A stretch of DNA of 64,000 nt from Prochlorococcus sp. AG-412-J13 (GTDB taxonomy: Bacteria; Cyanobacteriota; Cyanobacteriia; PCC-6307; Cyanobiaceae), in assembly GCA_003214815.1 (NCBI GenBank), contig QCLE01000009.1, forward strand, positions 1-64,000, written 5' to 3'. The translations under genes and the position numbers were made by a program. Positions 2,116-13,685 of this stretch are shown one piece after another; position 1 is the stretch's first letter; the number at the start of each line of letters is the position of its first letter. The notes below the pieces were generated by a model. It saw only the letters and a list, made by a program, of their open reading frames with translations. It did not search any database and was not told where the DNA came from.

Positions 2116-2427
2116 TTATATTTTCTCAATTGGTGCCATTGTTAATCCTTTGCTGACGAGTTGTTCATGATATAGCTCTGCCTGTTCAAGATTTCCTCTC
2201 CATAATTCCGCTGAACCTGTCTTATCAACTTTTTTGTTAAATCCCATGCCATTTTTTCACTAATACCTGGGATTATTGTCAGAAGACAATTTGCGACATG
2301 ATGATAAGTATTAAAATTATCATCAAGAACTATAATCCTTGCTTCTGGATATTTTGCTTTTGATTTCGTTTGATCTAAGACTGTACTTGGTGAATTAAAG
2401 ATTATTGTCTGTGCTAGTTATAGTCAT
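2116..2427 (-). pseudogene. broken ClpS-type Clp protease adaptor
   Basis: Read on the minus strand, the remnant gives TVLDQTKSKAKYPEARIIVL, DDNFNTYHHVANCLLTIIPG and ISEKMAWDLT. After a one-base loss in an A6 run near 2,230 it continues as VDKTGSAELWRGNLEQAELY and ending LVSKGLTMAPIEKI. The pattern (D-D-x-x-N-T, H-V followed by the helix, then GS-AELWRG.. EQAE) is the ClpS core, here in the divergent second cyanobacterial form. A second frame break lies near the ATG at 2425-2427, where that frame hits TAA after ten codons. ClpS delivers N-degron substrates to ClpAP/ClpCP. This copy cannot make the intact protein; a functional copy is presumably elsewhere. Confidence 0.75.
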
Positions 2428-2670
2428 TTTAAATTTCACCTAAGATCATCAATCGAAAAGTATTGAAAATGTCTAGAGTTTTAATTTAAAACGCGACATG
2501 CTGTATATGAAAAAGCCGATGATTTTAAATATAGTTGTTATGTTAAAACTATGTTCAGAAAGCTTACACAGATTTAAACCATTAACTTCCTAAAATGTCC
2601 GAATTTCTTTGACTGAGATATAAATACTTTATAAATAAAAAGATAATATATTGCAAATCTTGAATCTTTA

Positions 2671-2913
2671 CTAATTTGTATCAGCTACATTCTTAAAAAA
2701 ATCACAATAAGTCATCAATTCTGATTCGGTTTCAATTTTTAGATTTAAATCATCAATTGCCTCCTTGGTATCAATTCTGTAGCCATACCAATCCAGACAT
2801 AAGTCTCTCTGCCTTTGCGTGTCAGAAATCTCAAGAATATCTAATTTATTCGATGTATTTGCACAACCCCACATTAAAGCCATGAAAGGAATTAAAAAAA
2901 TTAAGCGTTTCAT
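2671..2913 (-). CDS. small lipoprotein
   Basis: The 80-residue protein begins MKRLIFLIPFMALMWGC, a lipoprotein signal peptide with a lipobox LMWGC (Cys17). The mature part is polar and helix-rich, with Cys at RDLCLDW and LMTYCDFF that could pair. I recognise no enzyme domain. It probably sits as a lipid-anchored protein on the periplasmic face. Its ATG overlaps the TGA of the upstream broken frame (bases 2910-2913), so it was probably translated by coupling with that gene when it was intact. Confidence 0.7.
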   Translation of the reverse strand: MKRLIFLIPFMALMWGCANTSNKLDILEISDTQRQRDLCLDWYGYRIDTKEAIDDLNLKIETESELMTYCDFFKNVADTN

Positions 2914-3305
2914 TTTTTTCTGTTAACTAATCCATAAATACATAATATAGGATTAACAATCAAAACAATCAAAAAAGGAGGTGGAGGACCTCCACCAACA
3001 ATTGTTCCAGAATTAATAATATTGAATAAAGCTACTGCTAACAAACAAGTCATTTAAGCTAGTTCACCTAATAAAACCTTTTTTAAAGATTTTTTATCTT
3101 AGATAGAGCTGCAAATAATCAATAAAAGACCAATTCCTAAATTACTTGCTGCTACAACATATGCAGTCCCTCTTACAATAAGTAATGTTTCCGTTGAAGC
3201 AATGCCTGCAATGGTTTCTACAGAAAAAATTAGAAGGAATATAATTTATAATCCCACCAGAATATGAAGTGACCCTGTAATTTTTAAAATATTTTTTAAA
3301 TTCAT
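2910..3305 (-). pseudogene. broken multi-pass membrane protein with three in-frame stops
   Basis: One reading frame of 132 codons runs from ATG (3303-3305) to TGA (2910-2912) with no indel and only three internal TAA codons (codons 20, 69 and 84). It reads MNLKNILKITGSLHILVGL, then IIFLLIFSVETIAGI, LIVRGTAYVVAASNLGIGLL, and after the last stop MTCLLAVALFNIINSGTIVG, GGPPPPFLIVLIV, ending YGLVNRKK. About four hydrophobic helices are visible, suggesting a small DoxX- or DUF4345-like integral membrane protein, though I cannot name the family. The last 47 codons after the third stop form an intact ATG frame that overlaps the next gene by ATGA. They could still be translated as a small membrane protein. 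Confidence 0.65.
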
Positions 3306-3948
3306 AATAATAAGCGTTTTTTATTTCTTCTTATCTTTGATCTACTTTCAATTAATACAATTATGGTTCTAACTTTTTATAAAATTTTGCGTAGACATTT
3401 TCAAAAAAAAAATCTTGCTTATGAACTTACACTTTTTGAAACATTAAAAATGCAATATTGATTTCTTATAGGTTTGATTATAAGAGTTTAACTAAATCAG
3501 TACTAGCAGGAAAGAAAGTATAAATAATATAAGAAGTAAGTAAGGAATATAAACAACTTCTTGAGGAAGTTTGGAAGAAAACCTCTATGTAAAATAGTTC
3601 CTTTTAAAAATAAGGAGTATAGGGGACCTCTGTCTTCATTGAGTCACCATAGTAACTTTCAGATGACTTTATTAAGATCCAATAAATGAAATTTAGAAAT
3701 AATTTTTCCATAAGTATATCTATAGCTTTTCTTATTGAAAACAGAATATCAAATTAAAACATCGTAGGAAATACTTATTTAGTAATCATCTCATTTATTT
3801 TCTTTTAAACAGCAGAACAAACATCACTCATCTCAGACAAGACAAGGGTTGCGGTTGATCGATATTCGTGACGTCACGATTATCAGTTACTGAAAGATAG
3901 ATATTTTTTTAATAAAAATAATTAATTACTGAAATCCAAGCTAATTTT
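3306..3948. other. intergenic stretch with gene debris
   Basis: Short plus-strand pieces look like decayed coding sequence. One is a 32-codon frame from ATG at 3363 (MVLTFYKILRRHFQKKNLAY). Another, around 3470-3592, reads RFDYKSLTKSVLAGKKV, then after two TAA codons EVSKEYKQLLEEVWKKTSM. A third is a 23-codon signal-peptide-like frame near 3688. None is intact enough to annotate as a gene. The 14-bp palindrome at 3866 is listed separately. Confidence 0.4.
3866..3879. repeat. perfect 14-bp palindrome TCGTGACGTCACGA
   Basis: The string is a perfect palindrome, with 8 of 14 bases G or C in a region that is otherwise overwhelmingly A/T. It sits about 70 bases before the frame at 3949. Such a site fits a dimeric protein-binding site or a recombination/methylation target, but nothing in the sequence decides which. 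Confidence 0.5.
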
Positions 3949-4134
3949 TTGTCTTACCTTGAAGCTACTCAAAAAGCTCAAAAGAAACGAATGATAATTA
4001 TTGGAAAATTTGCTGAATATAAAAATAATTATCCTCAAAGATCAAAAGCAAATTTAGCTTTAACAACAGTTATGAGTGAGGAAGGTTGGTTAAAATATGT
4101 CATTTGTAATGACGTTTCTGCTTTCAAAGCGTAA
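3949..4134 (+). CDS. hypothetical 61-aa protein
   Basis: The frame opens with TTG (SYLEATQKAQKKRMIIIGKF) and ends WLKYVICNDVSAFKA. It is polar and basic with no membrane helix or export signal. An alternative ATG at 3991 would give 47 residues (MIIIGKFAEYKNNYPQ). The central part looks like real protein, but the absence of an ATG at the expected N-terminus suggests the 5' end may have been lost. No function is recognised. Confidence 0.45.
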   Translation: MSYLEATQKAQKKRMIIIGKFAEYKNNYPQRSKANLALTTVMSEEGWLKYVICNDVSAFKA

Positions 4135-4289
4135 AAGGTTAAATTAAATTGACTTTCTGGGTGGCATCCTTTAGCTGAAGCTGCATCCGTTTCTAACTTA
4201 CTCGTATTTTGAAGATCAGAAGGACCTGTTCTTAAATTTCACATTATTATCTATTTCAAAAGATATAAACTTTTCATTCTATCTAAGCC

Positions 4290-4880
4290 ATGAGAGGTTA
4301 TCTCGTTGGATTATTTGAAAATAAATTCCAACTAAAGTTTAGAAATAAAGGTAATCCTAGTAATAGTATTGGTAGGCCAGAACCTATTAATTCCAATACA
4401 ACTATACATCCAGAAACACAACAACAATCATGATCTGCCTTAGTGCCTAACAAGTGTGAAGCATTTGAGATTCCAGTTAATGATGGGGCTTTTGTGATTA
4501 ACCAAGACTCTAATTACTTTGAGCATGAAGCAGTTCAACCTACTCAGGATGAATTATTTGAAACTGTATTACCAGCTATATCGAAATTAAATCTGAATGA
4601 AGTATATGGCATTGAGGCAAAATGTTCTCGCCTTGAATAAATCCAACAAAATCTTGAAATACATTCTGATATGGCTAAGCCAATAACAAGTAAAGCTAAA
4701 TACCTTTAATCCACTTGCCATTTATTAAACATAAACAAATAAACTAAAGAATTAATCAGTGAAAACTGCACTTATACAAAACGTATTCGTTTCTGGTCAA
4801 AGGCCGAAATTTCTGAATCAGCTGATGCGAGAATTCAACACTATATGAATCTCCACGATATTGTGAATACGTCATTGTAA
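4290..4880 (+). pseudogene. long unrecognised frame interrupted by four nonsense codons
   Basis: From ATG 4290 a single frame of 197 codons ends at TAA 4878-4880, broken by TGA 4431, TAA 4638, TAA 4707 and TAA near 4743, with no frame change needed. Pieces read MRGYLVGLFENKFQLKFRNK, RPEPINSNTTIHPETQQQS; NKCEAFEIPVNDGAFVIN, ELFETVLPAISKLNLNEVYG; and TKELISENCTYTKRIRFW then SKAEISESADARIQHYMNLH. The third block has clear amphipathic character. No family is recognised. It may instead be two neighbouring small genes (4290-4433 and 4443-4640) plus debris, since both pieces are open on their own. Confidence 0.45.
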
Positions 4881-4984
4881 ATGAGTGAATGAATTATAGA
4901 GAGCCCTTAACGGAAGATTTTTTTACTATAAATATTCAATATATAATTAAGTATTAATTATTAAATTGACTAAATTTAAAACTT

Positions 4985-5683
4985 ATGATTAAAACCTTAC
5001 AAATCAAAATCTTGAAAAAGTTATTGCTTGCTATAGCTTTGCCGATAACTATTTTTGGTATTAATCCTAATGAGGTCAGGTCAGAGGAATCTAAAGGTGT
5101 ATATGTTACTGGTAATTATGGAACTTCATCTTTTACTAGTGCTGATTGGAAAGCAACAGTTAATAATCTCGCTCATAAAGGAAATTTAAAATTTGATAAT
5201 GGAACTGGTTGGGAAGCAGGCTTGGGTTATGACTTCGGAAGACTTAGAACGGAATTATCATATGGTGAATCCACTAATAAGATAGAAAGTATAACTGCCA
5301 CAATAAACGAGGGGATTTTCAGCGGAACATCAGTAATATCAAGTGCATCAGGAGACTTGAAAATTAACAATGTTTTGATAAATGGATATTTAGATTTTCC
5401 CATTGGAAGGAAATTCATAAAATATATTGGAGCGGGAATAGGTGGATGTAAATTAGATATTGATAACATTACCGTTGATGGAGAAGTACTGGAATCTGCC
5501 AGTACTTGGTTGTTTGGCTATCAAGGAAAACTGGGATTAAGTTATAGACTTACTAAAAATTTCAATATCTTTGGAGAAGGAATTTATTCAGCATTTAGCG
5601 ACTTGGGTGCAGCAGGTGAAAAATATGGCTTAGAAAGTAGTAGTGATATTAATTATCGTGCAGGTCTCATTTTAAAATTTTAA
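4985..5683 (+). CDS. outer-membrane beta-barrel protein
   Basis: The 232-residue protein has a signal peptide (basic start, hydrophobic LLLAIALPITIFGIN, cleavage around residues 32-34). The rest consists of alternating polar/aromatic strands typical of the OmpA-like, surface-antigen type of small barrels. Examples are GVYVTGNYGTSSF, GWEAGLGYDFGRLRTELSYG, YIGAGIGG, LFGYQGKLGLSYRLTKNFNI and the terminal strand DINYRAGLILKF, which ends in Phe as outer-membrane proteins do. Eight strands are likely. It would be inserted in the outer membrane as a small pore, adhesin or phage-exposed surface protein. It has its own upstream AT-rich promoter region and no operon partner. Confidence 0.8.
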   Translation: MIKTLQIKILKKLLLAIALPITIFGINPNEVRSEESKGVYVTGNYGTSSFTSADWKATVNNLAHKGNLKFDNGTGWEAGLGYDFGRLRTELSYGESTNKIESITATINEGIFSGTSVISSASGDLKINNVLINGYLDFPIGRKFIKYIGAGIGGCKLDIDNITVDGEVLESASTWLFGYQGKLGLSYRLTKNFNIFGEGIYSAFSDLGAAGEKYGLESSSDINYRAGLILKF

Positions 5684-5872
5684 AGTAATTTCTAAAAAAA
5701 CTGGTTTTCTTCTAGAACTGTTCTAATAAATCCATATGCTTTTCTTGCATCTTAGATAGTTTCTATTACCACTAATAGCTTCTTATGCTGATTGAGAGTA
5801 TATTTTAAACCCTTTACATTGTTCAATTTATTGACTATTAATTAAATAAAAAGACTAAGCTTAAAGTATTAA

Positions 5873-6280
5873 ATGGATAACTATAGTAATACTGTAAATT
5901 GGTTTTTTGGAAAAGCGAGAGAATTTTTTGGACCAGAGCCGGGTGCTCTTGTACCGTTAAATATTCTTGCCGCTTTTTTCGCACATGAACACTCCGATGC
6001 TTCGATGAGAATCCTGCATGGGTATACTTCTATTGGTCTTGTTATTGGGATTTTTAGTGCATTTAGTATTTTTATGAATATCCGTTCAACATTTAAAAAG
6101 ATAAGAGTTTTCATACCTTTGCTAATAATTAATGTCTGGGCTTTCTATGTGAATACATGGGTAGCCATAAATGGTATGGGTATACCTTACGGTAAACAAT
6201 TTCATATATTTTTATCAATTTTAATTATCGCAAATTATTTTGTATTTAGAAGGTATACAAATTTAAAAGAGGTAACTTAA
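5873..6280 (+). CDS. hypothetical integral membrane protein
   Basis: The 135-residue protein starts MDNYSNTVNWFFGKAREFFG. Hydrophobic segments lie at about residues 48-68 (GYTSIGLVIGIFSAFSIF), 78-97 (VFIPLLIINVWAFYVNTWVA) and 108-125 (FHIFLSILIIANYFVF). Before them is an HEHSDAS stretch with two His and an Asp that could bind metal or sit near a quinone. There is no signal peptide. I do not recognise the family. It is intact and ATG-started, which is notable in this decayed region. It lies about 190 bases after the beta-barrel gene and may be independently transcribed. Confidence 0.65.
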   Translation: MDNYSNTVNWFFGKAREFFGPEPGALVPLNILAAFFAHEHSDASMRILHGYTSIGLVIGIFSAFSIFMNIRSTFKKIRVFIPLLIINVWAFYVNTWVAINGMGIPYGKQFHIFLSILIIANYFVFRRYTNLKEVT

Positions 6281-6414
6281 ATAATTTACTTATAAATTAC
6301 TTTAACTTAAAAATATATCGATAAATGAATGCAAATAAATGAAACGACACCTCCTCCCACCACTTTTCAAACAATTTAATAGAAGTAGTTTCTTTTCATC
6401 ATTTAGTTAAAACA

Positions 6415-6774
6415 TCTGCCAGTATTAGATGCTGAAGAGATTAAAAAGCAAGAGCAGAAAGAAGCTATTGAAAGGTTGCTCCATTAAACATTCAAAAAAA
6501 CTTTGTTAGGTCAAATTTAACTATGTTGAAATGTTCTATTGCTCCACACATGGACGCACGAGTAGCTGCTAATTCAATGGGGCATTCAATCCAAGTAAAC
6601 AATGCTACTTGCAACTCAACCTATGCAAAGAAAGATGCTATAAAAGCATTAAGGAAACTAAATAAATGAAAAGCTTTCTACTTGCAAACAAATTATATTG
6701 ATGTCATTGAGATACCCACCAAGGTGGAAATTGATCAAGAGTCTGTGTCTATTGATTTGGAAGATGATTTGTAG
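6415..6774 (+). pseudogene. tyrosine recombinase (integrase) C-terminal fragment, decayed
   Basis: After a frame break near 6,470 the frame reads SIAPHMDARVAANSMGHSIQ, then AYAKKDAIKAL-type helix sequence, then TGA (6666 area), then YIDVIEIPTKVEIDQESVSI and TAG at 6772. The block ARVAANSMGHSxxV...Y matches box III of tyrosine recombinases (MGHS followed by His/Val and the catalytic Tyr region). It resembles integrases of picocyanobacterial islands. The upstream piece (PVLDAEEIKKQEQKEAIE) is in another frame and may belong to the same gene. The catalytic Arg boxes are absent, so this is debris. The similarity is judged by eye. Confidence 0.45.
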
Positions 6775-7084
6775 ATAACTTTATTAAATTAGTGAATAAG
6801 ATTAAAAGCAACCCGAAATATTATTTTCGGAGGTAAATAGAGGTTTATATTTTGCAGAGAGGTTGTAAGTTCTTCGTGTAAGTCCAGTTGATGTATAAAC
6901 CAAACCTTTCTTTATTATTGCAGTAAGCTTATTGCTTTCATTACTTAAAGATCACCAAGAACTTTTTTATTAATCTTTTTCATTTATTAATGTTGGAATT
7001 TTAGTTTCTGGACGGTTCTACTACTTTTCTTAATTTAGCTATATTTATCTATTGCTATATTCCTTGATGTTGATAGTTTGGTAT
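6775..7084. other. non-coding stretch with two hairpins
   Basis: CCGAAA (6813-6818) pairs with TTTCGG (6825-6830) in a compact stem. A larger hairpin has arms GGTTTATA (6842-6849) and TATAAACC (6894-6901), with a 44-nt loop region that is less AT-rich than its surroundings. Together these could be a terminator plus a small structured RNA, or a mobile-element end. No coding frame is convincing. Confidence 0.4.
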
Positions 7085-7291
7085 ATGATCAATCCTTTTA
7101 AAAAACTCAATCTTTTTAAATTCAAAGAAAAGAAAAATCTTCTGACCATTGCTGAGCAGATAGAGCTAGAGCTTCGGAAAGAAAAAATTGAAAAGGCAAT
7201 AAGATCTAGAGCTTATATATCAGAAATCAATCAAAGATATAACAAGATGACTGATAAAAAGAGAAAGAACTTTTTTAGAAAAGCCGCATAA
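7085..7291 (+). CDS. hypothetical basic small protein
   Basis: From the ATG at 7085 the frame gives 68 residues: MINPFKKLNLFKFKEKKNLL, a long charged helix (AEQIELELRKEKIEKAIR) and a Lys/Arg-rich end (MTDKKRKNFFRKAA). A TTG at 7052 would add a short hydrophobic N-terminus. Predicted to be soluble, strongly basic and coiled-coil-prone. No function is recognised. The consistent helical periodicity argues that it is a real gene. Confidence 0.5.
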   Translation: MINPFKKLNLFKFKEKKNLLTIAEQIELELRKEKIEKAIRSRAYISEINQRYNKMTDKKRKNFFRKAA

Positions 7292-7347
7292 TATTTATCA
7301 GTTATTCAATTAATTTGCATTATTAATGTAATTGCTCTTGATAAGGA

Positions 7348-7497
7348 ATGCTAATTCCTCCTCACATTCCGCAAATACAATACGCTTATGATGGTGGTTT
7401 TTCTACCATTGCCTTTGGCTTATTTGGAAGCTACATTGTTTGTCTTTTAATCTTATTGATACCTTTTGTCGTTTTTAAATTTAAGAAGCAGAAATAA
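7348..7497 (+). CDS. 49-aa single-pass membrane protein
   Basis: The frame runs from an ATG (context ATAAGGAATG) to TAA, reading MLIPPHIPQIQYAYDGGFST. It has one strong helix (IAFGLFGSYIVCLLILLIPFVVF) and a basic tail KFKKQK, so the C-terminus is expected in the cytoplasm. This topology and size recur among small cyanobacterial membrane subunits, but no known photosystem or respiratory subunit is recognised. It lies between two other small intact frames, possibly co-transcribed with the gene at 7085. Confidence 0.55.
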   Translation: MLIPPHIPQIQYAYDGGFSTIAFGLFGSYIVCLLILLIPFVVFKFKKQK

Positions 7498-7569
7498 AAT
7501 TGTTTAAAAAAAAGTTGGTTAGCTTGTAAAAACTATTTTTTTTTGTTTTATTGAGTAAAACTTTTAAAA

Positions 7570-7863
7570 ATGTTAACTTTTCATTTTTTATTATTTGTCT
7601 CATTTATTTCATGGACAGGTATAGCAATTATTGGCAAAGGTAAAAATTCAACAGAGATAAAAATTCACTCACAAAAAGTTTTAGAGAGCTTTAATTTATC
7701 TATTAAGAACTTCTTTAAATTAGTTGAACTTCTTGTAGAAGAGACTACTGATTCAAACAAAAATGGAACATTAAAAGAAGTTAAAGCAAATGTTTCTATT
7801 GCAAAAAAAAATGTAATACAACTTTTTAAAGTGGAAAATAAAGAAAACAAAAAAACAGCTTAA
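7570..7863 (+). CDS. hypothetical membrane-anchored helical protein
   Basis: The 97-residue protein has an N-terminal hydrophobic segment (MLTFHFLLFVSFISWTGIAI) without a clear cleavage site. It is followed by amphipathic helices (QKVLESFNLSIKNFFKLVEL, TLKEVKANVSIAKKNVIQLF) and a Lys/Asn-rich tail. It is probably tethered to the inner membrane with a coiled-coil domain in the periplasm or cytoplasm. No family is recognised. A short AT-rich spacer with a T-run precedes the ATG. Confidence 0.6.
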   Translation: MLTFHFLLFVSFISWTGIAIIGKGKNSTEIKIHSQKVLESFNLSIKNFFKLVELLVEETTDSNKNGTLKEVKANVSIAKKNVIQLFKVENKENKKTA

Positions 7864-8198
7864 TTTTTAAGAGAAAATTCTGAGAGTGTTTAACGATATA
7901 GCACAGATTCAAGTTAACCTCATTCGCCCTTTTCAAATGGCATGAGGGTGTAGATAAACAATTAACAATTAATAACTAAAAGTGAATGGATAGAACAAAA
8001 CAAATAAAAGAAGCTCATACTTATCAATTAAACATATGGGAATAACCAAAAAAAAATGTAAATTTATGAAGGTTATAAAAGTGGCTAACTTTATTAAACA
8101 TACAAAGCAAATTCAAGAGGATACCTAATTACTCGGGCCTGCATGCTCACTTAGAAGCATCGTTGATAACGGTACAGTTAGGACTGAGACCTACTAAG
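7864..8198. other. intergenic stretch with small-frame debris
   Basis: A 19-codon frame starting at 7987 (MDRTKQIKEAHTYQLNIWE) ends at TAA. After a frame change it seems to continue as KKKCKF then YEGYKSG around 8045-8085, which looks like a broken small gene. The 3' part (8,175-8,200) contains GTTAGGACTGAGACCTACTAAG, loosely resembling the sequence after the repeat at 8,700. No intact gene is supported. Confidence 0.35.
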
Positions 8199-8462
8199 AT
8201 GACAAAATTAGAGAAGTTTCAAAATATTGGTCTTAACTCTTATGAAACAGTTAAGGTTTTTTATTTATTCAAACCAGGCATTGGGTTGGATAAAGAATAC
8301 TAACGGAATAATCATCAAGAAGAAATGGATAAGTTTATAGATAACTTAGTTACCAAACCAAGAATGCAGATTAATGAGTTCGTTGCGTTCGTTAAAGACA
8401 ATTACTTTGCTCCTGAAGGAGTAGAAGTGGAAAACGAAGTCGTTATTTGGAGATGGACTTGA
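8199..8462 (+). pseudogene. 88-codon hypothetical gene with one in-frame TAA
   Basis: The frame starts MTKLEKFQNIGLNSYETVKV and ends FKPGIGLDKEY before TAA at 8301-8303. It then continues without a frame change as RNNHQEEMDKFIDNLVTKPR, MQINEFVAFVKDNYFAPEGV and ends VVIWRWT-TGA. Both halves look protein-like. The downstream part has its own ATG at 8325 and could make a 45-residue peptide. Function unknown; no export signal. Confidence 0.5.
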
Positions 8463-8522
8463 GCTTATGAAGTACTATAATTTCCAATATTAGTTTCAAG
8501 AATTATCCATATTCGAATTATT

Positions 8523-8636
8523 ATGGACATTTTTTAATTATCTAATCTTATAAAACTAGGTATAGCTTTTACGATTCTACTGTCTAGTACTTCCATAGCG
8601 CAGAACTGGTGTAAAATCCCTGTAGGAGCGGACTAA
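8523..8636 (+). pseudogene. signal-peptide fragment of an exported protein
   Basis: In frame with an ATG at 8523 but after a TAA (8535-8537), the codons read NLIKLGIAFTILLSSTSIAQ then NWCKIPVGAD-TAA. This is a textbook signal peptide with an Ala-x-Ala-like end (SIA/QN). The mature part is only about ten residues and ends inside the dispersed repeat at 8627. It is probably the 5' remnant of an exported protein truncated at the repeat. Confidence 0.4.
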
Positions 8637-8670
8637 ATCCTCGTGGAATTTACAGATTTAAGCCCACTTT
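8627..8670 (+). repeat. dispersed hairpin repeat, copy 2
   Basis: The first 21 bases match copy 1 at 1211 (AGCGGACTAAATCCTCGTGG plus A). The second arm differs (GATTTAAGCCCACTT) but still pairs with the first: AAATC with GATTT, and most of AGCGGACT with AAGCCCACT. A retained stem with changed arm bases is consistent with a structured or terminator-like element. It lies at the end of the signal-peptide fragment. Confidence 0.55.
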
Positions 8671-8779
8671 ATATATAGCTAAGGGAAATCAGAGTGGCAA
8701 GGTAGGACTAGTCTGAGACGACTAAGAGAATCTTGAAAATATTTTCATCTCGCTCTCTCGCGATCAGTTGACACTTTAT

Positions 8780-9160
8780 CTATTGGTTGAAAAACTGGAT
8801 CTTTTTCTCAACTATTCTAAAGTTCATATCTATAGCTCCTTTTCTTAAAGGAATAATATTTTGGTATTCACCTTCATAGCAATCTTGCGCTGCTTGTTTG
8901 CTTGGGAATTGTGAGAGTACAGTAAACGGTCCGTCATATCCTTCTCTTACATCTGTTTTATAATCAACTAGTAATGTTTTTGCTCCACAACCTTTTACAA
9001 CCACATCATTTACTCTTGCGAAGTATTTACCTGCTTGCTCTGGATTTATAATTCTGCCAGAAATCATTACATAACCTACATTCCTGTTTTTTGGAACTTT
9101 ATAACCAATCGCAAGCCCAGCAAGGCACGCAATTAAACCAATTAAAATAGTTTTTTTCAT
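8780..9160 (-). CDS. DUF1330-family membrane-anchored protein
   Basis: The 126-residue protein has an N-terminal signal anchor (MKKTILIGLIACLAGLAIGY). A compact alpha/beta domain follows: VGYVMISGRIINPEQAGKYF, then the ARVNDVVVKGCGAKTLLVDY strand-helix pair, GPFTVLSQFPSKQAAQDCYE and NIIPLRKGAIDMNFRIVE. This layout (Y-x-x-x-G-x-I-x-D/NP, then F-P-S/D-x-E/QAA, then R) is that of DUF1330, a ferredoxin-like dimeric fold of unknown reaction. Two Cys could form a disulfide. It is the only intact longer gene in this part of the island. Confidence 0.75.
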   Translation of the reverse strand: MKKTILIGLIACLAGLAIGYKVPKNRNVGYVMISGRIINPEQAGKYFARVNDVVVKGCGAKTLLVDYKTDVREGYDGPFTVLSQFPSKQAAQDCYEGEYQNIIPLRKGAIDMNFRIVEKKIQFFNQ

Positions 9161-9251
9161 TTAAAATTTGATTTTTATAAATGTTATACGATCCTTTCTA
9201 AGTTGACATAAAAAATTATTGCTATTAATTATGTAGAGACTTTTTTATTAA

Positions 9252-9341
9252 ATGCCATTAGACGTATTTCTAACGTACATGTGTGTTGTGGTTATAGCTT
9301 TGCTTATTAGAAGAGAGATCAAGCTTACTAAAGCTAGATAG
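9252..9341 (+). CDS. possible 29-aa membrane peptide
   Basis: A short ATG frame gives MPLDVFLTYMCVVVIALLIR then REIKLTKAR. One hydrophobic helix is followed by a basic tail, giving an inside-positive C-terminus. Such mini-membrane proteins exist in picocyanobacteria, but this frame is too short for certainty. The following stretch to 9595 holds only broken hydrophobic frames on both strands. Confidence 0.35.
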   Translation: MPLDVFLTYMCVVVIALLIRREIKLTKAR

Positions 9342-9595
9342 TTATGAGAATTAACTCTAAAACCATAAGCTTGTTGTTAAAAATAACTGTCTGTATTTTG
9401 GTATTTGTTATTTAGTTATTGCTGTTGCTTATCCAACGCTTTCTTAGAAATAAGGCATAAATCTTTTGACCTATCGCTCCATAGATACCTATAACTATAA
9501 GAAATATCGAGAATAGGATCACTGAACAAAATCTAATTATTATTGTTATCTCTTAAATAATTTGAATATGGAAGTAGATCGAGACAATTTGTAAG

Positions 9596-9931
9596 TTACT
9601 TCTCTCTAATTTTTCTCCATCTGAAATACATATATCACATATAAATTTCTAGCATATAATTCTTTGTTCCATTTTCTAATATATTTTTTGAAAATTTATT
9701 ATTGAACATTCCACTTTCAATTAATCCTTTTTTCTAATCTATTTCCTCTTTCATTGCTGTTGTTGCTCTTATAATTTCTTCAATATTTCATATTCAACAT
9801 GTAACACCTAAACGCCCAAGATCTTTTAATCCTTTTACACTTCCCATTAAGAGTTTTGCATCTGAAGGGGAATGAGATTTGATATTAAAGAACTCTTTCT
9901 GCCAGGCTTTGTCATTCCATTTAGCAGGCAT
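9596..9931 (-). pseudogene. hypothetical gene with four in-frame stops
   Basis: One frame of 112 codons starts MPAKWNDKAWQKEFFNIKSH, continues SDAKLLMGSVKGLKDLGRLG and VTC, then shows TGA, Ile, TGA, NIEEIIRATTAMKEEID, TAG, KKGLIESGMFNNKFSKNILE, and a further TGA before TAA. No indel is needed. The two close TGA codons would restore Trp residues by a single change each. No family is recognised. The plus-strand frame 9872-10108 lies antisense to it and is discarded. Confidence 0.6.
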
Positions 9932-9955
9932 ACTAATAAAGTTGTTTTAGTTTTT

Positions 9956-10141
9956 TTAGCTTTGTTTATCTACAAAGTCCCAGACTTCATCAATAGCATC
10001 ATAAAAATCACAGGTATCTGGTTTTTTCATCTAAGAGCTTTCATAACAAACATCGATTTCAGCATTTATAAACTCTTTAATTCTTCTAATGTGATTACCA
10101 CCACCTGAGTTTTGATTTAAATTATTTATGTCATTTAACAT
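9956..10141 (-). pseudogene. small hypothetical gene with one in-frame TAG
   Basis: The 62-codon frame starts MLNDINNLNQNSGGGNHIRR and continues IKEFINAEIDVCYESS, then TAG (10031-10033), then MKKPDTCDFYDAIDEVWDFV ending DKQS-TAA. It precedes the broken frame at 9931 by 24 bases on the same strand, as in a two-gene unit. The second half keeps an ATG directly after the stop. Acidic, soluble, unrecognised. Confidence 0.5.
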
Positions 10142-10170
10142 TTTTACTAATCCATAGGTAACATTAAAAA

Positions 10171-10407
10171 GTGTCGTATTTCTACTATATAAAACTATTA
10201 TTTCTTGGCTATAAAACTAATGGAAACTTTTGCTATGACAAGCTTTTGAGTTTTGCCATACCCACTAAAATATGCTATAAAATTTATCTTCAAAAAGAAG
10301 TCTATGGAGATTGTGCTGCAGCAAAATTAGACACAAACCCGAAGATATATTTAAGAACAATCAATAATTATAGACCATATTTTTCACACTCATCTCGCAC
10401 TCCCTAA
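10171..10407 (+). CDS. uncertain frame, possible gene fragment
   Basis: A GTG-started frame of 78 codons contains a protein-like part: KICYKIYLQKEVYGDCAAAK and LDTNPKIYLRTINNY, with four Cys overall. The N-terminal third is Tyr/Phe/Leu-rich and may be non-coding. There is no clear export signal or start context. It may be the 3' remnant of a small exported protein. Confidence 0.3.
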   Translation: MSYFYYIKLLFLGYKTNGNFCYDKLLSFAIPTKICYKIYLQKEVYGDCAAAKLDTNPKIYLRTINNYRPYFSHSSRTP

Positions 10408-10740
10408 GAAGGTTCTAAAAACGTTTGAGTTTTCCGTTTAATTAACTCACTCAGAAACATTTAATTTTTAATCAACATTATTACAACAGTTGCAATTCAA
10501 AAAAATAGTCCATGGTTCAAAATGAAGAAATAAATATTTGAAGCTATCTAGAAGAACACTAAGTAAGCATATGAAATACCTTAACTATGGTCATCATTAC
10601 ATTTGTATGTTTGCAAGGAATACTAGAAGCACAATCCTATTGAATGTAGATCATTTAGAGAAATATCTCTGCCAATCTGTTGCATCTGTTTTTAAAAAAT
10701 AAATCAGCATATTTACGCATGTATATAAAAAAATAATTAT
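10408..10740. other. no gene seen
   Basis: No frame of convincing composition occurs on either strand, and no clear hairpin or repeat was found. The next features are the RNA-like stretch and the terminators next to the tRNA. Confidence 0.5.
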
Positions 10741-10820
10741 TGTAATTTCAGCTTGATCTAACAAGATCTAGGCAAAACAAAGAGGTTGATATCTAAGTCA
10801 GGCAAGTCAATCTCTTTTTT
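10741..10820 (+). ncRNA. candidate small RNA ending in a terminator hairpin
   Basis: The stretch contains a small stem GATCT-AACA-AGATC (around 10,755-10,768). A longer stem follows, AAAGAGGTTGA (10779-10789) with TCAATCTCTTT (10807-10817; one G-T pair), running into TTTTTT. That is a good plus-strand intrinsic terminator with no protein gene in front of it, so it may end a small RNA. The 5' end is unknown. It may equally terminate leftover transcription from decayed genes. Confidence 0.3.
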
Positions 10821-10839
10821 AATGTCTTAAATTAATTAT

Positions 10840-10868
10840 TAAAAATAAGACTACTTTAAAACGTAGTC
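10840..10868 (-). terminator. intrinsic terminator of the tRNA-Met gene
   Basis: On the minus strand GACTAC-GTTTTAAA-GTAGTC (10849-10868) forms a 6-bp stem followed by TTATTTTT (10840-10848). It begins about 20 bases after the 3' end of tRNA-Met. Confidence 0.6.
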
Positions 10869-10887
10869 ATTGCAGTTAGTTTTTTAT

Positions 10888-10961
10888 GTCTCAGGGCAGA
10901 CTTGAACTGCCGACCTCCGGGCTATGAATCCGGCGCTACTAACCAACTGAGCTACTGAGAC
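10888..10961 (-). tRNA. tRNA-Met (anticodon CAT)
   Basis: A 74-nt cloverleaf: acceptor GTCTCAG / CTGAGAC, D-arm AGCTCAGTTGGTTAGTAGC, anticodon stem-loop CCGGATTCATAGCCCGG with CAT, and T-arm GGCAG-TTCAAGT-CTGCC. CCA is not encoded, as usual in cyanobacteria. G1-C72 pairs, so it is not a typical initiator. An elongator Met is most likely; a tRNA-Ile with lysidine-modified CAT cannot be excluded. It marks the right end of the accessory island, and a degenerate copy of its 5' half occurs at 12572-12611. Confidence 0.9.
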
Positions 10962-11004
10962 TTGCTGTAACTTTACTATTTTACAGGTTTAATAAGCAAT
11001 ATAT

Positions 11005-12330
11005 TTATTTAATTTCTACTGAATCCATAAATGTTTTCTTCTTAGATTCTGTCGAAATCCTTCTTTGATAGTTCTTTGTATGTAGATCAATATCGTGTTC
11101 CATAGCTGCGGCTACTTTCTCGTTTCTTATTTGCTTCCATTCTTTATCTGTAGCTATGCGTATAAGCCATATATGAAGCAAATCATAGGCAGTTATACTT
11201 TTTTGTTGTGAATTCTTTGTATTCTCTCAGAATATCTCAGGTACAGAAGAAAACCAATCTGGGAAATGTTTTCTATTTCTTTGATTTAACCAACCGCCGA
11301 GGGTTATGTTATTTACACAAACTCCTAAATCATTGTTCTTATTATCTGGGTTCCATGGAAAGGTTTTATCTATTGATGACATTATCTTTAGCATAGATTT
11401 CTCATGTAAAAACTTCTGGCATTGATGGAATCGATCAAGCAAATGAAATTTATCTATCCAATGGATAAAGACACAATGAACAATGCTCATCTTTTGATTT
11501 GGTTCTCTTTTGACCTGGAATATAAACCAACATTAGACCTTTATTGTCTTCTGGTTTTATATGCCAAAGTTCGTGACGCCTTAAACCAAAAAAGAGAATC
11601 ATTGCAAATATCCATTGCTCTATTTGATATGTAAGAGCAATTGAATTTAAATATGCTTCTGCTTCTTTCTTAGTTGGTATACAGCGTATGTCATTCATAT
11701 CTGAATTGCGATCATATCTTTTTTCCTTTTACTTGATTGGGGATATAACTCTCTTAATGGTGCTAAGTCTAGCTTTCTAAGCAAGATTGGTTCATCTCCT
11801 TTGGATTCCATTAACTAATACTTGCCTGATGACGTCTAATGTATTTAATCTGTTTTATTGCTTATTAGAACCAACCTCATATTCTCCACTCCACTTCTTT
11901 AATGAGTCGAATTTAAATGGTATATCAGACTCAACTAATTTATTTAAATTGCAATGATGATTACTCATGGATGACTCTTTCATTACTTTTAATAAATGAT
12001 CTTTAGTTATTGATCTAACCTCTGACCATTTATAAATACGAGATGTAACCTCTCGGTCCCAATCTTCTGAAAGCTTTATTAATTGCGTGATGGGTACACT
12101 CGTGTTCCATTCTTCATCTCCAATGTATAAACATAAATTTGCAGCAGTTTTTATATCATCCAAATTTTTCTTGATCAAAGGTAGCAATAAACATTGGAAA
12201 AACTTATCCTTTGACCTTACTTTATATAATGCGATCTAGCTATCTTCCTTAGTGTGTGACGACAATCATTACTACTTAGTCCATCAATTATAATCTCCCA
12301 TGATTTAATATTTCTGGATCTTGATGTCAT
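11005..12330 (-). pseudogene. decayed tyrosine recombinase (integrase)
   Basis: Starting near ATG 12330 (MTSRSRNIKSWEII), the gene needs several frame changes and stop read-throughs to reach TAA at 11005. Recognisable parts follow. The N-terminal SAM-like region is at 11855-12187 (IKKNLDDIKTAANLCLYIGD, WDREVTSRIYKWSEVRSITK), then NTLDVIRQVLVNG. The catalytic core start is at 11450-11698 (TKKEAEAYLNSI, FGLRRHELWHI with the RxxEL-type Arg box). Box II is TAYDLLHIWLIRIAT, where the expected LRH is LLH, so a catalytic Arg is lost. Box III is AAAMEHDIDLHTKNYQRRIS, where MGH is MEH and the Tyr is kept. A full-length version would be about 440 residues. It cannot be functional. Confidence 0.8.
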
Positions 12331-12571
12331 AGTTTTTGTACCCTATAATCTAGGAATAATGGTTAGAAAGAGATAAAAATTACCTCGGTTGGTTAGCTAA
12401 AAAAATATACCCCAAGCAATTTAATAGTATACCCATAAGTTAAAAATAATGAAATTGGTGCTTTATCCTTCGCACTGATTAAAAATTATAAACACATTAA
12501 ATTACTGTTGTATCATTGTATTTATTTGATAGCAATAAATCTCATGAATTAATAAATACTAGTGTCAAGGT

Positions 12572-12611
12572 GCTATAAATCGCCCGCTCAACCCAGCTGA
12601 GCTTCCGAGAC
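12572..12611 (-). repeat. degenerate copy of the tRNA-Met 5' half (attachment-site remnant)
   Basis: The 40 bases align with 10921-10961, the 5' half of tRNA-Met from G1 through the anticodon loop, in the same orientation. Shared strings include GCTAT-AATC, AACC, CTGAGCT and GAGAC, with roughly three quarters identity and one or two small gaps. The anticodon-loop position reads TTTATAG instead of TTCATAG. The 3' half is absent. It marks the outer boundary of the element; the core genome starts just after it. Confidence 0.65.
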
Positions 12612-12640
12612 ATGGGAATATGGTAATGCATTTTTTGTAC

Positions 12641-13123
12641 TTAATTACCATTTTGAAAATTTAGTTGTTTATGAGCCTCATATATAGCAATACCGCATGC
12701 TACAGAAAGATTTAGACTCCTAACACCTTTTTGATCATTGTTTCCAGTCTGTAAATTCGGCATAAATATTGATATTAAAAAGTCGCTTTTATCAATAATG
12801 GAATCTGGCAATCCTGAATCTTCTCTCCCAAATAGCAAAATATCATCTTGCTTAAATTTAAAATCATTCAAATATAATCCATTTTTTTTACTAAAAGAAA
12901 TTATTCTTTTTGTTGCTTTTGAAGTCAAAAATTTTTCATAATTATCATACTTTTTAACAGTAACTAGAGGCCAATAGTCTAATCCTGCTCTTTTTAAATA
13001 TTTATCTTCTAGTTTAAAACCCAAGGGCTCTATAAGATTTAAAGGTATATTAAACGCAGCACATGATCTGGCAATATTACCAGTATTTTGTGGGATTCTA
13101 GGTTCAAAAAGAGCGACTTCCAA
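12641..13123 (-). CDS. trmL: tRNA (cytidine/uridine-34-2'-O)-methyltransferase TrmL
   Basis: A SpoU/SPOUT-class methyltransferase that uses SAM to methylate the wobble ribose of certain tRNAs. Seen: EVALFEPRIPQNTGNIARSC near the start (the E-P-x-I-P-x-NTGNIAR motif 1), FGREDSGLP (motif 2, G-R/S-E-x-x-G-LP) and SLNLSVACGIAIYEA (motif 3, the knot N-L-S-x-A). The protein is about 160 residues, normal for the family. The TTG at 13121-13123 is chosen because family members begin about three residues before L-F-E-P and it follows the cobU stop directly. A TTG at 13141 would extend it by six residues and overlap cobU. Cytoplasmic. Confidence 0.9.
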   Translation of the reverse strand: MEVALFEPRIPQNTGNIARSCAAFNIPLNLIEPLGFKLEDKYLKRAGLDYWPLVTVKKYDNYEKFLTSKATKRIISFSKKNGLYLNDFKFKQDDILLFGREDSGLPDSIIDKSDFLISIFMPNLQTGNNDQKGVRSLNLSVACGIAIYEAHKQLNFQNGN

Positions 13124-13124
13124 T

Positions 13125-13685
13125 TTAAGTAGGTATTTCAATACTTATTTCATCTATTTTGATTGCTCTGCCGTTTATTGCCAGCCAATTATCTTTTGAT
13201 ATTTTGGTTATTCTCTTTTGAAGTTCCCCGATTCTTTCAATATAAGTATTACCAATTTTATATTCAGAGACCAGACTCCAACCTACTTGTTCTCCAACAA
13301 TAATTGTTATGCTTTTTCTTTTCATTAAGAGACTCATAAGTGAATTCATTTTTGTTGACCATTCTTTTTGTCCCTTGCCAATACTTTTCATAACGAATCC
13401 GCCAATCGAATCTATTAATAATGGACCTTCTTCTTTCCTTAATGTATTTAAAAGATCTGTCGTTTCTATTAATTTCCAATCTTTTGGTCTTCTTTTTCGA
13501 TGTAAATTAATTTTATCTTGCCATTCTTTATCATCCAAATTGTTTTCAGATAAGGCAACATATGATAATTTTTTTACCTCCTTTGCAAGATGCTCTGCGA
13601 ATTCACTTTTGCCACTCTTTGTCCCCCCTGTAATGCAAACTATATGAGATGAATATTCACTAATACTTAAATTCTTTGCATTCAT
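13125..13685 (-). CDS. cobU: adenosylcobinamide kinase / adenosylcobinamide-phosphate guanylyltransferase
   Basis: Bifunctional CobU/CobP of late B12 (or pseudocobalamin) synthesis: it phosphorylates adenosylcobinamide and then transfers GMP to it. The 186-residue protein has the P-loop CITGGTKSGKSEFAEHLA at about residues 18-35, the conserved NLHRKRRPKDWKLIET (His/Arg guanylylation region, 60-75) and LLIDSIGGFV (Walker B-like). Length matches the family. It fits with cobN and B12-dependent metH in this window. It is followed directly by trmL, so the two are probably co-transcribed. Confidence 0.92.
   Translation of the reverse strand: MNAKNLSISEYSSHIVCITGGTKSGKSEFAEHLAKEVKKLSYVALSENNLDDKEWQDKINLHRKRRPKDWKLIETTDLLNTLRKEEGPLLIDSIGGFVMKSIGKGQKEWSTKMNSLMSLLMKRKSITIIVGEQVGWSLVSEYKIGNTYIERIGELQKRITKISKDNWLAINGRAIKIDEISIEIPT

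Follow-up and report, generated by a model that had tools for sequence, protein, structure and literature searches.

A foreign tRNA-Met that has very probably taken over from a cut resident gene at a Prochlorococcus island

According to Guerrero-Bustamante and Hatfull (2024, PMC10865867), in the tRNA-dependent lysogeny of actinobacteriophages a tyrosine integrase acts on an attB that lies in a tRNA gene and has a short core, the target is not rebuilt, and the phage supplies a tRNA of the same isotype. They call the evolutionary relation between this mode and canonical integration unclear. Phages of the Rhizobium vTRX32-1 group carry a whole tRNA-Leu without the core motif, by which, the authors think, super-integration is prevented (PMC8631192). 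Tycheposons, as outlined in PMC10872708, have a tRNA at their border (one of seven, Met included), a tyrosine recombinase and a length of 4-200 kb.

The locus analyzed here lies in a window of 64,000 nucleotides on contig 9 of the Prochlorococcus-like genome G000 (1.83 Mb, 58 contigs). It shares with the actinobacteriophage system a tyrosine integrase, an attB in a tRNA gene, a target that was not rebuilt and an element tRNA of the same isotype. It differs in being a cyanobacterial island in which no phage gene was recognized among the few ORFs tested, with an elongator tRNA-Met as target, a dead recombinase and a tRNA that the host has retained. As in the Rhizobium phages, an integrating element carries a whole replacement tRNA that differs at the core motif; those elements, however, are phages with another tRNA and host, whereas here the anticodon arm differs and the anticodon is kept. 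Canonical tRNA islands of the Islander type (PMC4383910) likewise show a displaced tRNA fragment and an anticodon-loop crossover, but here the resident tRNA is cut, a third tRNA is intact and foreign, and the target is not regenerated in the unit that carries it. The initial annotation of the window likened the element to tycheposons, and such kinship is plausible by the features in common: Prochlorococcus, a tRNA-Met border, a tyrosine recombinase, cargo and a length over 4 kb (PMC10872708, PMC10187409). Recombinases lying upstream of the tRNA are also reported for tRNA-Phe and tRNA-Cys (PMC10187409). The likeness stops at the recombinase side, where the target was not rebuilt. The principle of a replacement tRNA is thus already known in phages. 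Our literature searches, which did not extend to the original tycheposon paper (it may contain part of this), returned no account of such replacement at the Prochlorococcus tRNA-Met; as far as they show, the island setting, the elongator tRNA-Met target, the occurrence of both layouts in one recombinase family and the long-term takeover of an apparently essential tRNA are new.

The resident tRNA-Met and its two remnants

Among 29 trmL-side loci of relatives, 25 have a single, nearly invariant, uncut native tRNA-Met adjoining trmL, with the sequence of window 12613 onward as its upstream flank, as the initial annotation had expected of relatives lacking the element. The others hold the foreign tRNA-Met called T2 (one locus), a second foreign tRNA-Met called T3 (two), or no tRNA (one, in a distant genus). 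The far flank could be aligned in seven of the 25 uncut loci. The clpS flank comes next in six of these seven, with alignments that reach window base 2468 in three of the six; the seventh, G022, has different DNA in its place. The names clpS (2122-2408) and trmL (12641-13141) are our own assumption. Between the two genes the window is laid out as follows.

2122-2408, minus strand: presumed clpS, core gene past the left end, frame-shifted (tblastn with the intact G004 protein matches in two frames)
2469-2511, minus strand: left boundary of the foreign DNA, formed by a decayed native tRNA-Met 3' half (score 42 against a shuffled maximum of 26; adjoins the clpS flank)
2512-10840: interior, mostly decayed cargo (Pfam; comparison with G223 and G021)
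4985-5683: interior cargo ORF, outer-membrane beta-barrel (Pfam)
8780-9160: interior cargo ORF, DUF1330 (Pfam); the remaining interior ORFs are without known function
10849-10868, minus strand: terminator-like hairpin and T run behind T2 (one found against 0.2 expected)
10887-10961, minus strand: T2, intact and presumably element-borne tRNA-Met(CAT) (ARAGORN; 100% identical in G016 and G124)
10962-11004, minus strand: spacer upstream of T2, presumed promoter (alignable with T3 loci)
11005-12330, minus strand: decayed tyrosine recombinase (at least four frame-broken pieces; motifs; profile match)
12550-12571, minus strand: attachment arm adjoining the native 5' half (G016 and G124 have related sequence in this position)
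12572-12612, minus strand: right boundary of the foreign DNA, formed by a decayed native tRNA-Met 5' half (score 58 against a shuffled maximum of 25)
12641-13141, minus strand: presumed trmL-like methyltransferase gene, core gene past the right end (93-95% identical in many relatives)

Compared with the native 5' half, the 5' remnant reaches a score of 58, whereas 30 shuffled queries over 16 kb reach 25 at most; it aligns with 25 relatives, continuous with the trmL flank. The 3' half scores 42 (best of 30 shuffles 26) and is closer to the native gene than to T2, at 31 versus 24, which are alignment scores with gap cost and not identities. The shuffled-query controls rule out a chance match for either half. 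The halves stand about 10.06 kb apart and flank foreign DNA, which places the attB inside the host tRNA gene, with a probable crossover at about 12573-12579, in the anticodon loop.

This layout bears out part of the initial annotation and revises the rest. The intact tRNA-Met, the decayed recombinase on the same strand and the 5' half copy were all confirmed (by ARAGORN, the broken frames and the score of 58, respectively), the half copy does align significantly with tRNA-Met, and the cut native halves around foreign DNA support a remnant integrative element at this gene. The half copy had been read as a duplicate of the intact tRNA; it is instead the resident tRNA's own half. The element, taken to be about 1.7 kb long, gives way to foreign DNA that spans about 10 kb, with its left end at 2469-2511. 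Further, it had been proposed that only the 5' half of the tRNA was replaced, whereas the 3' half of T2 is foreign too and the native 3' remnant lies 8.4 kb away. Half-tRNA replacement was rejected, as T2 differs from the native gene in both halves and, in G124, lies between both cut halves. The proposal that the region upstream of T2 is element-derived is supported.

The host flank on the left of the window is also decaying: clpS is intact in G004 and frame-shifted in the window, where its start codon is apparently changed, and a neighboring ORF (1541-1765), 129 aa long and open in G004, is truncated by an in-frame stop.

The foreign tRNA-Met T2 and its carriers

T2 and the native tRNA-Met are identical at 62 of 75 positions, with differences in both halves, and the acceptor strands of T2 pair with each other. 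In the anticodon arm the outermost stem pair differs and the anticodon is kept. T2 sits between the stop codon of the recombinase and DNA that, in related elements at tRNA-fMet, follows the recombinase directly; over about 680-700 bp, the DNA behind T2 is 72% identical to that behind the recombinase of three such elements. No promoter consensus was found in the upstream spacer (10962-11004).

T2-level matches occur in three of 266 genus genomes (G000, G016 and G124) and native-level matches in 188, each of these 191 genomes having one match, with no uncut native gene beside T2; G223, outside both sets, carries a native variant. Of the 35 tRNAs found in G000, the 30 that were read plus T2 cover all but four, which are 82-87 nt long. 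T2 is the only elongator tRNA-Met found there, the sole other CAT tRNA being tRNA-Ile2-like, which we take to be tRNA-Ile2. The initiator tRNA-fMet is absent among the 30 of 35 tRNAs read, probably because of an assembly gap; fMet is the target of related elements, one of which may have caused the break in the assembly.

All three carriers share an identical T2; outside it, the aligned stretch is 89% (G016) and 84% (G124) identical by BLAST. Given this flank divergence, simple arithmetic puts the chance of T2 identity at P ~2e-4 and ~1e-6, respectively. An artefact of the G000 assembly was rejected, as the same tRNA occupies the same locus in AG-459-N19 (G016) and AG-424-M03 (G124). In a tree of 2 kb of trmL flank (42 rows, picked from the loci at hand), a single T2 clade was rejected (p-AU 2.6e-5) and a single T3 clade was not (p-AU 0.44). 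T2 was thus apparently acquired more than once, although recombination could blur such a tree.

The most compact arrangement is that of G124, which reads, in the sense of the tRNA, trmL, cut 5' half, arm, recombinase scrap, T2, terminator, following DNA and 3' half.

G124, 8190-8225: 5' half of the cut tRNA (score 36, best of 100 shuffles 32)
G124, 8559-8633: T2
G124, 9004-9043: native-type 3' half (score 48, best of 100 shuffles 28)

The two halves enclose 778 bp, within which lie a whole tRNA-Met(CAT), T2, with its terminator and following DNA; this layout identifies these three as the unit that cut the resident tRNA. The 3' half has a terminator and following DNA of its own; over 229 bp this DNA is 77% identical to its counterpart behind T2, and from this second copy it follows that T2 arrived as a whole gene. 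The clpS flank is absent within the 957 bp examined behind this 3' half, so element DNA already lay behind the resident tRNA; a reading of the half as the host boundary was rejected because of that related DNA. The G016 contig stops short of the left boundary of the foreign DNA, and its native 5' half is intact at 40 of 41 positions.

The recombinase family and a second foreign tRNA

The recombinase remnant matches 19 of 266 genomes, its own included: six at the tRNA-Met locus, none with an intact recombinase gene, and 13 at tRNA-fMet. Eleven of these 13 have open frames of 429-464 aa (G021 has a stop, and G272 only a fragment), to which the pieces of the remnant are 38-46% identical in the best stretch. 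The elements at tRNA-fMet (L161-L172, L175) are thus akin to that of the window in their recombinase and, in the three compared, in the DNA behind it. They differ in that all 13 keep an intact tRNA-fMet before the recombinase, with no other tRNA in the stretches that were read. Two of them show a displaced fMet fragment: in G134 it covers nt 30-67 (97% identity) and lies 14.7 kb further on, and in G188 it is 20 nt long and sits at the end of a contig. By sequence, theirs is the ordinary target-restoring layout.

Pfam does not recognize the intact recombinase, nor does PHROGs for the one genomic member compared, and PF00589 touches only one of 13 aligned family members (E 0.02). The family does conserve the R, K, R, H, H and Y positions of tyrosine recombinases, and its profile matches Pfam-recognized recombinases at 96.5%. 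Together, these motifs and the profile match make it a tyrosine recombinase family. Cyanophage PSS2 encodes a distant relative (27%) annotated as phage integrase. A PF00589 search over 151 genus genomes found other recombinases; among 22 such loci compared with the remnant, only a 389-aa protein (two loci) gave matches, and these were weak.

In viral contigs, 77 loci encode relatives by the family alignment, which are candidates for a family of marine mobile elements. The 30 best of these 77 were scanned for tRNAs: 29 had none, and one had a tRNA-Met on the opposite strand, so that the scan yielded no free element bearing a complete tRNA. That one tRNA-Met (L305, 2769-2844) lies 262 bases behind a distant recombinase relative; the relatives in IMG/VR contigs (L276-L303) are 27-46% identical and without tRNA genes. 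The window remnant matched no viral contig, its second half no phage record, and the exact T2 and T3 patterns no viral contig. Four cargo ORFs compared with PHROGs yielded three without a match and one weak match of unknown function.

The second foreign tRNA-Met, T3, occurs in four of 266 genus genomes (G015, G010, G129 and G194) and shares 48 of 74 positions with the native gene, its anticodon arm differing along the stem and at one loop position with the anticodon kept. It is identical in G015 and G194, whose flanks differ at 111 of 281 positions. A native 3' half persists in G015 (score 38, best of 100 shuffles 28) and G129 (32 versus 29), with the host flank of relatives directly next to it, and in G194 (48 versus 27), about 660 bp before the host flank. 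The G010 candidate is not above chance (score 24, reached by 17 of 100 shuffles). A search of the T3 genomes for a native 5' half found none, and the sequences behind T3 and T2 do not match each other. In a tree of seven tRNAs, T3 joins the native tRNA-Met of other genera (99/97) and T2 falls near native types; on the 75 sites of this tree, T2 and T3 may have separate origins. The G015 genome has 1,657,990 bases, which we take to be the size of the model strain MED4. An opposite-strand tRNA-Thr(CGT) lies behind T3 in G015 (L046, 16172-16245), G010 (L047) and G129 (L173); in G015 and G129 it is flanked by T3 on one side and the native 3' half on the other. It may be a second tRNA that the island carries or has captured.

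Reconstruction and competing explanations

The arm next to the native 5' half, which bears on whether the target was ever rebuilt, is related in G000, G016 and G124. No rebuilt tRNA was seen at the recombinase-side junction of these three. Set against six tRNA 3' halves, the arm gave p > 0.05 in 34 of 36 tests and p 0.03-0.05 in two (weak tRNA-likeness of the G016 and G124 arms), with 0/1000 for the decayed native 3' half as control. The arm may hold a vestige of a tRNA 3' half.

G223 complicates the left part of the window. Its tRNA-Met beside trmL is uncut and native-like, and behind it 2.7 kb (L211, 1876-4583) are related, in order, to the window interior and end in a displaced 3' half (score 56), native-like and not T2-like, followed by clpS. 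Window 2469-3810 matches the left end of this DNA (1342 bp, 84% identical). Elsewhere in the interior, 7960-10504 matches the fMet element of G223 in pieces (76-87%), and 8614-9195 that of G021 (86%). Among the 20 of 56 flank-comparison rows listed, only G223 rose above its shuffles. The related DNA behind its tRNA, which rules G223 out as an empty site, fits a canonical tRNA-island layout. It would be a canonical insertion, with the tRNA rebuilt, or else an older element that carried a tRNA and was healed when recombination deleted its recombinase. An uncut tRNA with a displaced 3' half means that the half at 2469-2511 is, by itself, no proof of cutting without rebuilding. The 10 kb of the window may be composite; the left part belongs either to the T2 element itself or to an older relative into which the T2 unit inserted.

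The reading we hold very probable is that an element cut the resident tRNA-Met without rebuilding it and that its own whole tRNA, T2, took over as elongator tRNA-Met. Specifically, an element with the order attachment arm, tyrosine recombinase, complete tRNA-Met (T2) and terminator would have entered the resident tRNA-Met beside trmL by recombination at the anticodon loop, splitting the gene in two, and T2 would have stood in for the unrestored gene. The tRNA halves would have decayed first, then the recombinase and most of the cargo, while selection would have kept T2, now presumably the host's elongator tRNA-Met. All carriers lack an intact recombinase, and no intact attP was found from which the attachment site or the core length could be read; integration, the order of events, the essentiality of T2, rescue by T2 and the exact point of crossover are inferred.

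Could the target instead have been rebuilt at the recombinase end, only for an accidentally carried whole tRNA to make the rebuilt copy redundant and let it decay? The intact targets of the fMet relatives and the slight tRNA-likeness of the G016 and G124 arms speak for such a course. We consider it improbable, since the nearly intact 5' half of G016 is followed by no recognizable 3' half and related arms occur at three loci not grouped in a single clade. No more probable, in our view, is a hybrid origin in two steps, a variant of the model in the initial annotation, whereby an older element gave a foreign 3' half and terminator and a small recombinase element a new 5' half, so that T2 would consist of two foreign halves. 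The window taken alone fits this, as does G223, where an uncut tRNA is followed by DNA like that behind T2 and by a displaced 3' half beside clpS. Yet that 3' half is native-like, the two strands of T2 pair with each other, and G124 still has, beside a complete T2 unit, the 3' half of the cut tRNA together with a separate terminator and following DNA. Least probable of all is that T2 and T3 are relocated or horizontally acquired host genes that came by chance to lie near recombinase remnants: although T3 groups with the native tRNA-Met of other genera, both tRNAs occur at one locus, behind related remnants and with the resident tRNA cut, and no matched genome has either beside an uncut native gene.

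Replacement of the cut tRNA by the element's own also invites a broader and more tentative model, to which we give somewhat less than even weight. Related elements may land successively in one tRNA-Met, and with each landing a tRNA would be brought in or rebuilt. Capture of a whole tRNA and its terminator from an island of this kind would free the recombinase from the need for a matching target, and the anticodon arm carried along would have diverged such that the element's own copy is spared. Self-avoidance of this kind would explain the anticodon-arm differences of T2 and T3. Each dead element would then leave its host a new tRNA gene, even in a genome of MED4 size.

These observations call for caution where a close strain has a divergent tRNA, which may belong to an element; island finders built to expect a single rebuilt tRNA with a single fragment may also misinterpret loci of this kind. 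As both layouts, together with shared neighboring DNA, occur in one recombinase family, the relation between tRNA-dependent and canonical integration becomes testable. For Prochlorococcus itself, the island very probably left a lasting replacement of an apparently essential tRNA, at a locus that has held two different foreign tRNAs.
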